A stretch of DNA of 64,000 nt, from positions 3,909,001 through 3,973,000 of the forward strand of contig NZ_AP017312.1 of NCBI RefSeq assembly GCF_002355375.1, in the 5' to 3' direction. A program made the translations under genes and the position numbers. Positions 19,098-57,847 of the stretch are shown here, piece after piece. Numbering within the stretch: position 1 is the stretch's first letter; the number at the start of each line of letters is the position of its first letter. The notes beneath the pieces are model-generated. The model ran no database searches and was not told the origin of the DNA. It saw nothing but the letters and a program-made list of their open reading frames with translations. This DNA comes from Aneurinibacillus soli. GTDB taxonomy: Bacteria > Bacillota > Bacilli > Aneurinibacillales > Aneurinibacillaceae.

Positions 19098-19118
19098 AAG
19101 AAGGGGAAAAGCGAGACC

Positions 19119-19223
19119 TCTTATCTGTCGGACATGCGTCCAGCTGGAATTGGCACCAATTGAATCATTCAACGGTTGCCGAGGCTTCATCGGGCCAGTC
19201 CCTCTGCCTCTCTGGATAAGAGA
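19119..19223 (-). ncRNA. SAM-I (S-box) riboswitch aptamer
   Basis: The minus strand shows the conserved S-box core in order: CTTATCCAGAGAGG, GAGGGACTGGCCC, GATGAAGCCTCGGCAACC, GGTGCCAATTCC and the closing GACAGATAAG. High SAM would favour the downstream terminator and switch off metNI. Confidence 0.95.
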
Positions 19224-19308: not shown

Positions 19309-19420
19309 GTTGGGTTTTGTTTTCCGAATACTTTTTTAGACACCACTTCTATATATTCGACAACATTCAGAATATACTTTTAAAACTCTAAGCAGAACCA
19401 TTAGAATTATACTAGAAAAA

Positions 19421-20842
19421 ATGTCGTATCATAGAATAATTTGTCTTATATTTACTTTTCGGATACAAAAGGAATTTGCTAGACGTTGTCAAATTATGAG
19501 ATTAAGAAAGGTGCGGTGCATCTTGGATTTTGTCATTTTTATTTTTTACTCTGTCCCCGAGATGCTGTTAATTGTCCTTTTATCTGTTTTTTTAGCAGGC
19601 AGGTACGAACAGCAACAAGCAATCAAATATTTCATCGCCGCTTTATTTTTAGCCTGTGTTTTTGAGGGCATCCAGGGTCTGTCACTTGCCGAATCTATCA
19701 GGCTTATCATTCAGCTACTCGTATTTTTATTATTTATGATTTTATTTTTCCGTATCCCCATTATACGGATTCTTACAGGTACAGTTATTACCTTGCTGCT
19801 TTTACAGGCAACAGAAATTATAACGATAAAAGTGTTCACTACTTTTGCTCATAAGGATTTACTGGACATAAAAAAAGATTCTTTGCTCTGGCTTTTCATG
19901 ATCTGGCCAAACTTACTCATTCTTTCACTTACTTTTTGGCTTCTCTATAGAAAGAAATTCTCAATTTTTAAAGAAGATCATCCAACAGCCAGACCACAAA
20001 GTTACTCAATCGGCTCTTATTTATTTTTTACTTTTCTTTATATTTTTTCGATTATCGGTGCTGAGTTTTTAGCCAAGGGCAGTAAACAAAGTGGGATTCA
20101 ATTAGCATTTCTATTAGGCTTTGAGATTTTTTCAATCCTGCTTGTACGAGAAATCATCACTTCAAAAGCAAGAGAAACAGAACTATCTATCCACAAGCAA
20201 TATATCGCTGACATTACATCTTTATTTACAACCATTCGAGCACAGCGGCATGACTTTGCGAATCACATTCAGGTGTTATACATTTTCGCTAAACAAAAGA
20301 ATCACGAGCGTCTGCTTGCCTACATCGAAGAACTTGTAGAACAGGTTAAAGAAATCAATGAAGTGCTTGTCTCAGATAATCCAGGACTTAGTGCGCTGCT
20401 GCAAGCCAAAGCATGTCAGTTCAAAGAGAAAGATATTGCACTGAATCTGCAGCTTTTCTCATCCTTAACCGAGCTGGACATGCGTGCAACCGAAGTCAAT
20501 CAAATCATCGGAAATCTGCTGGACAATGCAGCGGATGCAATCGAGCTTGCTGGCTACCCAACGCAAGAGATCCATCTCAGAACGAATCGCCAGGAAAGTA
20601 ACACCTGTATCAAAGTCACAAATATTCGCCCTGTCATTTCCGCTGACATGCAGAAAAAAATATTTGAATACGGATTTTCAACAAAACCACATCATACAGG
20701 TGTTGGGCTAGCTATCGTACATAGTCTTGTGAAAAAAAATGGGGGAACCTTATCGCTTATCAGCAATGAAGAACACGGAACCGAGTTTACGATCACATTT
20801 CCTATCAAAGAGGGGACGAAACGTGAGCAAAAAACTAGCTGA
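19421..20842 (+). CDS. AgrC-like sensor histidine kinase (SpoOB/GHKL type)
   Basis: Membrane sensor kinase, up to 473 aa. Residues about 45-245 (longest frame) contain about six hydrophobic helices with almost no extracellular domain, as in AgrC-type peptide receptors. The phospho-acceptor region is AQRHDFANHIQVL, the N box NLLDNAADAIE, and the G boxes KIFEYGFSTKPHHTGVGLAIV. The start is uncertain: the ATG at 19421 has no clear ribosome site, while TTG at 19523 is preceded by GAAAGGTG and gives 439 aa, the usual AgrC size. It overlaps the AgrB gene by 20 bases. Its expected partner, an AgrA/LytTR regulator, is not nearby. Confidence 0.88.
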   Translation: MSYHRIICLIFTFRIQKEFARRCQIMRLRKVRCILDFVIFIFYSVPEMLLIVLLSVFLAGRYEQQQAIKYFIAALFLACVFEGIQGLSLAESIRLIIQLLVFLLFMILFFRIPIIRILTGTVITLLLLQATEIITIKVFTTFAHKDLLDIKKDSLLWLFMIWPNLLILSLTFWLLYRKKFSIFKEDHPTARPQSYSIGSYLFFTFLYIFSIIGAEFLAKGSKQSGIQLAFLLGFEIFSILLVREIITSKARETELSIHKQYIADITSLFTTIRAQRHDFANHIQVLYIFAKQKNHERLLAYIEELVEQVKEINEVLVSDNPGLSALLQAKACQFKEKDIALNLQLFSSLTELDMRATEVNQIIGNLLDNAADAIELAGYPTQEIHLRTNRQESNTCIKVTNIRPVISADMQKKIFEYGFSTKPHHTGVGLAIVHSLVKKNGGTLSLISNEEHGTEFTITFPIKEGTKREQKTS

Positions 20843-21440
20843 TTCCATTGCCGGAGTATTAGTCGAACAGAGCCATACACAACACTCTGAAGCCGTATTG
20901 TCGTATGGTCTGCAAATTATGATCAACTCCATCCTCAAAATTTCCGTGATTACGTTCGCAGGGTGGGCTTTGCACCTTCTGCCAGAAATGTATGTAATGA
21001 TTCTTTCCTTTGGTATTTTACGCATGATTACAGGCGGCGTCCACGCTCACACATTTGTACGCTGCCTGAGCATTAGCTCTATTTCCTTCATCCTTCTTTC
21101 CTTGCTAGTCAGCCCTACCCTGCCTTACTTTTTCACACATACTTCAGCTATTCTCTTCGCTTTTATTATGATAGGTTTGCTCACCACATGGGTGTATGTG
21201 CCGGGCTCCTGGGGAAATCGAAAATTCTCTGCCCGGCGCATCCAACAATCAAAAATTCTTTCACTCTCTATCCTTCTTATTGTATGTACGGCTGTTGGAT
21301 CATATCTTCCTTCTACTTCTTATCCCAATCTTTTATGGGCCGCTATACTTGGCATGACATGGCAGTACATCCTGGTCACACCACCTGGCTATGCTTTCTA
21401 TCGTGTAATTGAAAGAACAGTTGCTACCGGAAGGGGGTGA
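20823..21440 (+). CDS. agrB: AgrB-like membrane peptidase/maturase of the autoinducer
   Basis: Membrane cysteine endopeptidase that removes the C-terminal tail of AgrD and closes the peptide ring. The start is GTG at 20823 after GAGGGG (205 aa, family length). The catalytic pair is His and Cys in GGVHAHTFVRC; the distance of seven residues between the first His and the Cys equals that between the catalytic His77 and Cys84 of Staphylococcus aureus AgrB. Five or six hydrophobic helices follow. The last codons contain the AGGGGG ribosome site of the peptide gene, so B and D are coupled. Confidence 0.92.
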   Translation: MSKKLADSIAGVLVEQSHTQHSEAVLSYGLQIMINSILKISVITFAGWALHLLPEMYVMILSFGILRMITGGVHAHTFVRCLSISSISFILLSLLVSPTLPYFFTHTSAILFAFIMIGLLTTWVYVPGSWGNRKFSARRIQQSKILSLSILLIVCTAVGSYLPSTSYPNLLWAAILGMTWQYILVTPPGYAFYRVIERTVATGRG

Positions 21441-21445
21441 ACAAT

Positions 21446-21580
21446 ATGATGAAGAAACTTAAAGCTGCCGCATTTACATACGCAGCAGCGTTTGCGTATC
21501 TGTTTGCACTCGCTGACATCGGAACAAACAGCTGGTTCGTATCATACCAGCCAGAAATTCCAGAAGAACTGCAAAAATAA
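21446..21580 (+). CDS. agrD: AgrD-like cyclic autoinducer precursor peptide
   Basis: A 44-aa peptide six bases past agrB with a strong ribosome site. Residues 1-23 are an amphipathic basic/alanine-rich leader (MMKKLKAAAFTYAA...), as in AgrD. The C-terminal tail QPEIPEEL matches the conserved tail EPKVPTEL of S. aureus AgrD. Aligning on this tail puts Ser29 where AgrD has its ring cysteine and predicts a five-residue ring Ser29-Trp-Phe-Val-Ser33, so a lactone and not a thiolactone (there is no Cys in the peptide). Ring closure at Tyr34 is an alternative. Residues 24-28 (DIGTN) would form the exocyclic tail. Confidence 0.88.
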   Translation: MMKKLKAAAFTYAAAFAYLFALADIGTNSWFVSYQPEIPEELQK

Positions 21581-21609: not shown

Positions 21610-21663
21610 ATACCAGAAGGCCTTGTTATGTAAGACAAAAACAAGGCCTTCTGGTATTTTATC
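21610..21663 (+). terminator. Terminator of the agr-like operon
   Basis: ATACCAGAAGGCCTTG pairs with CAAGGCCTTCTGGTAT around a 17-base loop, followed by TTTT. No response-regulator gene lies between agrD and this hairpin. Confidence 0.87.
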
Positions 21664-57244: not shown

Positions 57245-57847
57245 TCATACTAGTATATTTAAATCTTTGGCACGCTGCAGTGCTTTCACCCGATTGTTTA
57301 CTTCAAGCTTTCTGTATACATTTTTAATATGATATTTTACAGTTTCACTCGCGATGTTCAGGTGATAGGCGATTTCCTTGTTCGACAATCCCCTCGCGAT
57401 CATCCGTACAATCCTCGTTTCCTGCTCTGTCAGTATTTCTTGATCCCGTCGGAGAACCTCCATGGAAGGCTCGATTTCCCCTCTCCGATATCTTTTTCTG
57501 ATCTTGTCCAACATTTTTGACATTCGCTGGACGGTTACAGGCTTCATAAGATAATCCAGCGCGCTCATATCGAAGGCTTGAACCGCATAATCGTCATATG
57601 CGGTTACAAAGACCACATCTATGGAAGCATCGAGATCAAGCAACAGACTAGAAAGCCTCATACCGTTAATTTCCGGCATGGAAATATCCAGAAATGCGAT
57701 ATGTATCGGATTCTCCTTCACAAATTCATACGCTTCCAACGGGTTCAGAAACGCATGGCATAGTTCGATCTGGCCGCTCTCGGATAGTATCCTCTTCAAA
57801 CGTTTCACCGATAATTCTTCATCATCCACGATAATCGCTCGTAGCAT
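57245..57847 (-). CDS. Response regulator, receiver plus LuxR-type HTH
   Basis: A 200-aa protein. The receiver domain (1-120) has the acidic pocket VDDEE, phospho-acceptor Asp in IAFLDISMPEING and Lys in YLMKPV. It resembles LytR/AgrA-type receivers. The output domain (about 135-195) is a LuxR HTH (LTEQETRIVRMIARGLSNKEIAYHLNIASETVKYHIKNVYRKL), not LytTR. It starts four bases after the kinase stop, so the two are one unit. Confidence 0.92.
   Translation of the reverse strand: MLRAIIVDDEELSVKRLKRILSESGQIELCHAFLNPLEAYEFVKENPIHIAFLDISMPEINGMRLSSLLLDLDASIDVVFVTAYDDYAVQAFDMSALDYLMKPVTVQRMSKMLDKIRKRYRRGEIEPSMEVLRRDQEILTEQETRIVRMIARGLSNKEIAYHLNIASETVKYHIKNVYRKLEVNNRVKALQRAKDLNILV

Follow-up and report, generated by a model that had tools for sequence, protein, structure and literature searches.

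The analysis suggests that three adjoining genes of Aneurinibacillus soli very probably form an Agr-type peptide signalling unit, whose product would be closed to a lactone through a serine; this degree of confidence applies to the unit and its serine ring and does not extend to Spo0F, which is considered below as a recipient of the signal. The analysed stretch of DNA, in the following referred to as the window, comprises 64,000 nucleotides and originates from a genome (G000) of 4.12 Mb that is assembled in one contig and 99.98% complete. Positions 19523–21580 of the window hold the genes for a kinase, AgrB, and AgrD, and all elements of this C-B-D unit are located on the + strand. The unit and its surroundings comprise the following features:

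19523–20842, + strand: membrane sensor histidine kinase (AgrC-like receptor), assigned by domain models and homologue comparison
20823–21440, + strand: AgrB peptidase/cyclase with a GTG start, assigned by PF04647 and alignment
21446–21580, + strand: AgrD propeptide of 44 aa without Cys, assigned by TIGR04223 and alignment
21530–21544, + strand: predicted ring SWFVS with Ser29 as putative nucleophile and Ser33 as C-terminus, from the homologue alignment and the Cys-bearing paralogue
21610–21657, + strand: terminator-like hairpin with a perfect 18-bp stem, from sequence and fold
19356–19362, - strand: TGTCGAA upstream of the operon, perfectly matching the consensus of the Spo0A box; suggestive

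The 5′ end of agrB overlaps the kinase gene by 20 bases, and agrD starts 5 bases past the AgrB stop. Downstream, the arms of the hairpin (21610–21627 and 21640–21657) are followed by a short T run, and the structure folds with −37.1 kcal/mol (z −8.1). A sequence-only reading of the window had described kinase, AgrB, and AgrD genes in C-B-D order that overlap or nearly abut and end at a terminator, and this description was borne out, whereby the gene order is also kept in the relatives G003, G005, and G009. A simple terminator scan with a loop limit of 3–8 bases did not list the hairpin at 21610–21657, probably on account of its 12-base loop. Upstream of the unit, a SAM riboswitch (RF00162, 93.8 bits) is located at 19118–19222 on the - strand, and the - strand genes behind it resemble those of a methionine-type ABC transporter.

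The longest kinase reading frame spans 19421–20842, and 19421 had been proposed as its start. According to the homologue comparison, this would be about 100 bases too early: because the kinase homologues of G005 and G009 start about 35 residues later than the longest frame of the window, the TTG at 19523 behind AAAGGTG, which gives a protein of 439 aa, is the likelier start. The longest reading of the G003 kinase starts slightly before those of G005 and G009. The N-terminal half of the protein is hydrophobic as judged by eye and is followed by a SPOB_a phospho-acceptor helix pair (49.2 bits) and a HATPase_c domain (64.1 bits). Both H277 of the long reading (within RAQRHDFANH) and the N and G boxes are intact, and the H, N, and G motifs are conserved in all four type-1 sequences of the alignment, of which the focal kinase is one. 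By its sequence, the gene adjoining agrBD is a membrane GHKL histidine kinase with intact catalytic motifs; it reaches 49.5 bits against the staphylococcal AgrC equivalog model NF046015, which is below the cut-off of 500.

AgrB matches PF04647 with 96.8 bits (cut-off 23) and is the sole match to this model in the genome at E 0.001. In AgrB enzymes the histidine is catalytic. The sequence-only reading had made its proposal depend on the conservation of the AgrB His and Cys in homologues, and His73 and Cys80 (numbered according to P0002, in which the first residue is absent) are indeed invariant in 10 of 10 aligned AgrBs; for the Cys, a catalytic role has been described in the literature (PMC4979651). 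The best relative of AgrB in the named-genome collection, and the only one found there, belongs to Aneurinibacillus terranovensis DSM 18919 (52% identity), whereas searches of the plasmid and phage collections at 1e-5 and for a solved relative among structures at E 1 yielded none. A structure model of AgrB calculated from a two-row alignment was dropped (mean pLDDT 48.6). AgrD scores 33.8 bits against the curated model TIGR04223 (cut-off 19), contains no Cys, and carries Ser29 five residues ahead of the predicted cut (SWFVS/YQPEIPEEL, with the slash as the cut). In the alignment of ten AgrDs, the column of Ser29 is occupied by Ser in nine cases and by Cys in one (L007), and the five type-1 AgrDs (G000, G005, G003, G009, and G010) share the pattern NS[WF][WF][FTV][VAS]Y[QE]PEIP[EK]EL. 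Of the five paralogous type-2 agr loci of the focal genus, four have Ser in the ring column and one has Cys; elsewhere the column holds Cys in L082 and Ser in the sister locus L134. Since a paralogous AgrD has Cys in the very same column, Ser29 likely stands in for the usual Cys as ring nucleophile, and the alignment of homologues thus agrees with the earlier proposal of a Cys-less peptide that has Ser29 at the ring position and SWFVS as predicted ring.

The unit is conserved in relatives with 40–61% identity per protein and, on this sequence evidence, is more than a chance arrangement. While G003, G005, and G009 retain the full C-B-D arrangement, a fourth relative, G010, keeps AgrBD, and Ser29 is present in all of them. 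In G010, agrB-agrD (L055) and the matching kinase gene (L076) are found on separate contigs, the latter amid unrelated genes. G005 encodes one more protein homologous to the focal kinase (L077, 4903–6213), with no agrB or agrD detected in the 11.5 kb of sequence around its gene; this protein might be an eavesdropping receptor. The type-2 agr loci of the focal genus (L004, L006, L007, and L008) have the order C-B-D-A with an adjacent REC-LytTR gene. Type-2 receptors lack the phospho-His, the N-box, and the G-boxes, and four of the five lie beside REC-LytTR genes, the fifth (L005) being without a regulator.

Based on these features and by analogy with the Agr family, AgrB would bind AgrD and cut before Tyr34 by means of Cys80 and His73, whereby the tail YQPEIPEELQK is removed, and Ser29 would attack the acyl-enzyme to give a 16-membered lactone with the ring SWFVS. 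ALA is a signal-peptidase motif, and the leader could be removed after the ALA at residues 21–23, which would leave a DIGTN tail on the ring. The exported peptide would then be sensed by the membrane kinase, which would autophosphorylate on the His of QRHDFANH. Because no AgrA-like regulator was found in the genome, the phosphoryl group would have to be passed in trans to a receiver of another type. If Spo0F were the recipient, the peptide would convey cell density to the sporulation phosphorelay.

Across the genome, receivers were matched 49 times and HATPase_c 58 times. No AgrA-type REC-LytTR regulator was found in a search of the whole genome (LytTR at E 1), and the sole LytTR match is L009, a protein of 223 aa without a receiver. 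Within the window, the only receiver is encoded at 57245–57847 on the - strand, about 36 kb from the unit, which is in line with the claim that the locus has no adjacent response regulator. Likewise, receiver or LytTR genes were not detected in the 12.3 kb (G005), 19 kb (G003), and 18 kb (G009) of sequence around the other type-1 loci or in the 6 and 9 kb of the two G010 pieces. It had been suggested that the cognate regulator is encoded elsewhere or that the kinase signals to a non-cognate one. In a genome of one contig and this completeness, whose single LytTR protein lacks a receiver, the first suggestion finds no candidate of the AgrA/LytTR type, and the proposal is now better put as possible signalling to a non-cognate regulator.

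For the majority of the receiver matches (43 of 49, hybrids counted), a HATPase_c match lies no more than 4 kb away. By sequence and context, the remaining six are Spo0F, Spo0A, two CheY-like proteins, CheV, and a 499-aa receiver protein, whereby the names Spo0F (encoded between pyrG and fba) and Spo0A are our assignments. In Bacillus, kinases encoded elsewhere in the genome pass phosphate to the orphan receiver Spo0F. By the same evidence of sequence and context, the genome holds the orphan focal kinase along with Spo0F, Spo0A, and Spo0B, the latter encoded between rpmA and obg. Spo0F is attractive as a recipient because it is such an orphan receiver and because the focal kinase shares the string QRHD..NHIQVL with the Spo0B of the strain, and it is therefore our first candidate, albeit a tentative and rather doubtful one. 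Besides the focal kinase and Spo0B, a third SPOB_a protein of the genome is a CitA-type kinase that has a receiver gene next to its own. Across the complete phospho-acceptor segment, the identities of the focal kinase amount to 21/74 with Spo0B and 19/77 with this CitA-type kinase, and the kinase of G031, which has an adjacent REC-LytTR gene, is even closer to Spo0B (26/75). Since the CitA-type kinase is nearly as close and the G031 kinase closer, the likeness to Spo0B does not discriminate, and our estimate for Spo0F was lowered slightly for this reason. The sporulation kinases KinA–E have a HisKA phospho-acceptor and not SPOB_a, so that the focal kinase carries SPOB_a where kinases of the KinA–E type would have HisKA.

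Two further potential signs of a phosphorelay link were considered. The first one was the Spo0A box, with TGTCGAA as consensus. It occurred upstream of 7 of 33 regulator-less C-first loci, whereas the background was 130 of 3532 windows and none of the 32 loci with REC-LytTR had it (Fisher P 0.011), and in 5 of the first 14 upstream regions against a shuffle mean of 0.39. Outside the discovery loci, it was present at 2 of 24 regulator-less C-first loci (P 0.22) and was thus not replicated in later loci. Across the window, 12 copies were found where 9.7 are expected, which is chance level. The second one was the presence of Spo0B. At E 0.01, the model PF14682 had matches in 32 of the 39 genomes that carry regulator-less loci, with 27 of these matches above the cut-off, and missed seven genomes, including G000, where Spo0B is present but divergent. 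On account of these seven genomes, the marker cannot decide the matter, and a phosphorelay link is not demonstrable for all regulator-less genomes.

Alternatively, the kinase may act by cross-talk on a receiver that already has a kinase partner, such as the CitB-like regulator at 1334637; we hold this to be marginally likelier than the Spo0F step, though we would not call it probable. The 43 receivers with a nearby HATPase_c match would offer many such targets, the partner of the CitB-like regulator is the CitA-type kinase with SPOB_a whose phospho-acceptor identities are given above, and a Listeria AgrC has been reported to phosphorylate a non-cognate regulator in vitro (PMC10891604). Against this stands that none of the paired receivers in particular shows a positive sign of such cross-talk.

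Whether the locus is unusual was examined in a survey of AgrB loci in Bacilli. AgrB was found in 117 of 398 genomes with 148 matches, of which 116 loci were examined; the 32 left out are 19 full matches in f11, which we call staphylococcus-like as a guess, and 13 weak or partial matches. REC-LytTR was encoded next door on the same strand at 31 loci, counting L173, whose own receptor is short and whose REC-LytTR gene may belong to a neighbouring separate kinase. Another 15 loci have a LytTR protein without a receiver, and 70 have neither; a long receptor gene is present at 40 of these 70, whereby two of the 40 were miscalled (L005 lacks kinase motifs and L177 consists of two short receptors). 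The residue at position −5 in the 40 loci is Ser in 14, Lys in 13, Cys in 9 (L136 was read by eye as Cys), other in 1 (L177, with Lys at −4), and unassigned in 3; in the 31 REC-LytTR loci it is Cys in 20, Ser in 7, and unassigned in 4. Altogether, 105 AgrDs at the 116 loci have predicted ring residues, namely Ser in 44, Cys in 32, and Lys in 29, where nine AgrDs were picked by eye, the cut was placed by our own tail scoring, and the residue was taken at −5 or, failing that, as Lys at −4. The earlier statement that serine lactones occur in a few staphylococci was therefore too narrow: Ser is the commonest predicted ring residue in this Bacilli sample, and Clostridium thermocellum has a serine lactone as well (PMC5322536).

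A tree was calculated from 63 long receptors, without L005, L122, and loci whose kinase was split or missed. In this tree, 21 of 28 REC-LytTR rows fall into one group of 23 rows (100/100), and the focal kinase sits among the regulator-less ones. The regulator label requires 6 changes compared to a shuffled mean of 20.9, a clustering that is aided by near-copies in a tree with some long branches. H-box patterns miss many full kinases (e.g., IKHDSLNH), so that absence of the motif in long receptors beyond L004–L008 means little. Because regulator-less long receptors are common in the survey and the focal kinase clusters among them, the locus is, on the sequence data, no oddity and fits well into a widespread regulator-less group. 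A Ser ring, the C-B-D order, and the lack of an adjacent regulator are encountered repeatedly in Bacilli, and the exceptional character that had been ascribed to it does not hold. The same tree bears on the idea that the REC-LytTR partner of the unit was lost in this lineage and that the remnant is decaying. A related C-B-D unit in G031 (L078) does have REC-LytTR directly downstream, and 8 of 11 family genomes searched contain at least one REC-LytTR gene. However, G000 and G010 both carry the unit with intact genes and conserved motifs although neither shows a LytTR protein with a receiver, and the clustering of regulator-less loci is unlike recent decay, which makes this explanation improbable. 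Least probable of all is that Ser29 is not the nucleophile and that the product is linear or closed elsewhere and serves another role, e.g., as a bacteriocin-like peptide, since the second serine, Ser33, is present in 2 of 5 type-1 AgrDs and replaced by Val or Ala in the other three, whereas the Ser at −5 is present in all five and the last ring residue varies, paralogues have Cys in the same column, and a Ser-lactone pentapeptide with Tyr after the cut is proven in C. thermocellum (PMC5322536).

Besides serine, the survey revealed AgrD-like peptides beside agrB that have a conserved Lys in place of Cys or Ser. In 13 of them the Lys is at −5 (L135, L137, L140, L142, L143, L145–L147, L153–L155, L158, and L159), and in 16 it is at −4 (L157, L162, L163, L165, L166, L170–L172, L174, L177, L180, L181, L183, L185, L193, and L199). 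In related loci, Lys at −5 replaces Cys under the same tail (KMGVW/HEPKPPHLR compared to CTGHL/HEPKPPHLR), and with Lys at −4 the ring would count 16 atoms by our own count, equal to Cys or Ser at −5. It is possible that these peptides are lactam signals; a limited word-based literature search retrieved no natural lysine-ring Agr peptides. Furthermore, short receptor genes (193–249 aa) occur at 42 loci. L129 is a piece of a kinase with an N-box, and the other 41 (e.g., L164, L165, L180, and L186) have no N-box and resemble the AgrC membrane domain alone. The short receptor overlaps agrB in 40 of the 42 loci, and therefore there is no room for a kinase domain between them. At 14 loci, a short receptor is followed by a LytTR protein without a receiver, and four short receptors scanned against Pfam gave no family match at E 1. 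An iterated-profile score had pointed to kinases, an assignment that was rejected since, with the exception of L129, no kinase domain is present. The possible Lys-lactam peptides and the kinase-less receptors may be more surprising than the focal locus itself.

Taken broadly, the locus could be part of an extensive and little-described radiation of Agr systems among the Bacilli, where the ring residue is swapped between Cys, Ser, and Lys (thiolactone, lactone, and lactam) and receptors are cut loose from AgrA. These would occur as regulator-less full kinases, the focal one feeding Spo0F and sporulation, as dead kinases beside REC-LytTR, and as membrane-domain-only receptors beside a receiver-less LytTR protein; as a whole we consider this proposal speculative and unlikely to hold in every part. 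Density signalling to sporulation in Bacilli is otherwise ascribed to Rap/Phr-type peptides. Should the kinase act on the phosphorelay, an Agr lactone would directly take on this role in the group. Even without the Spo0F link, the survey reveals the B-D-C-A thiolactone system as one branch among several, and it yields a testable list of Ser- and Lys-ring signals and of receptors that should be unable to act as histidine kinases.

The agr locus of Staphylococcus has the gene order B-D-C-A. In common with it, the window has an AgrB of the same family, the AgrD tail motif, a membrane GHKL kinase as putative receptor, and a predicted five-residue ring; unlike it, the window has the order C-B-D, no AgrA, and a kinase with SPOB_a above the cut-off; in the kinase tree, this protein is placed apart from the kinases of B-D-C-A loci with good support. 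In the B. subtilis-type phosphorelay, an orphan membrane kinase occurs in one genome with Spo0F, Spo0B, and Spo0A. Compared to kinases of this type, the window kinase has SPOB_a and not HisKA, and its input would be a putative self-made Agr peptide, a link that is hypothetical. Clostridial AgrBD loci with a partner that is away from the locus or not known have been described for VirS of C. perfringens (PMC7492741) and for RgaS-RgaR (PMC10602386), and the Agr1 locus of C. difficile is an incomplete agr locus that affects sporulation (PMC8534292). All of these are incomplete like the present one, but in the window the kinase gene belongs to the operon, and it is the regulator alone that is absent. 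With regard to the ring, a serine lactone has been reported for S. pseudintermedius (PMC3673130), and the AgrD-type pentapeptide of C. thermocellum (Clo1313_2818) was confirmed by LC-MS/MS to be a Ser-closed lactone (PMC5322536). The predicted ring of the window resembles the latter in its five residues including Ser, in the Tyr right after the cut, and in the conserved Pro five residues on. In C. thermocellum, however, agrD is located outside an apparent agr operon, and none of AgrB, AgrC, and AgrA was identified (PMC5322536), whereas in the window agrB and the kinase gene are adjacent to agrD.
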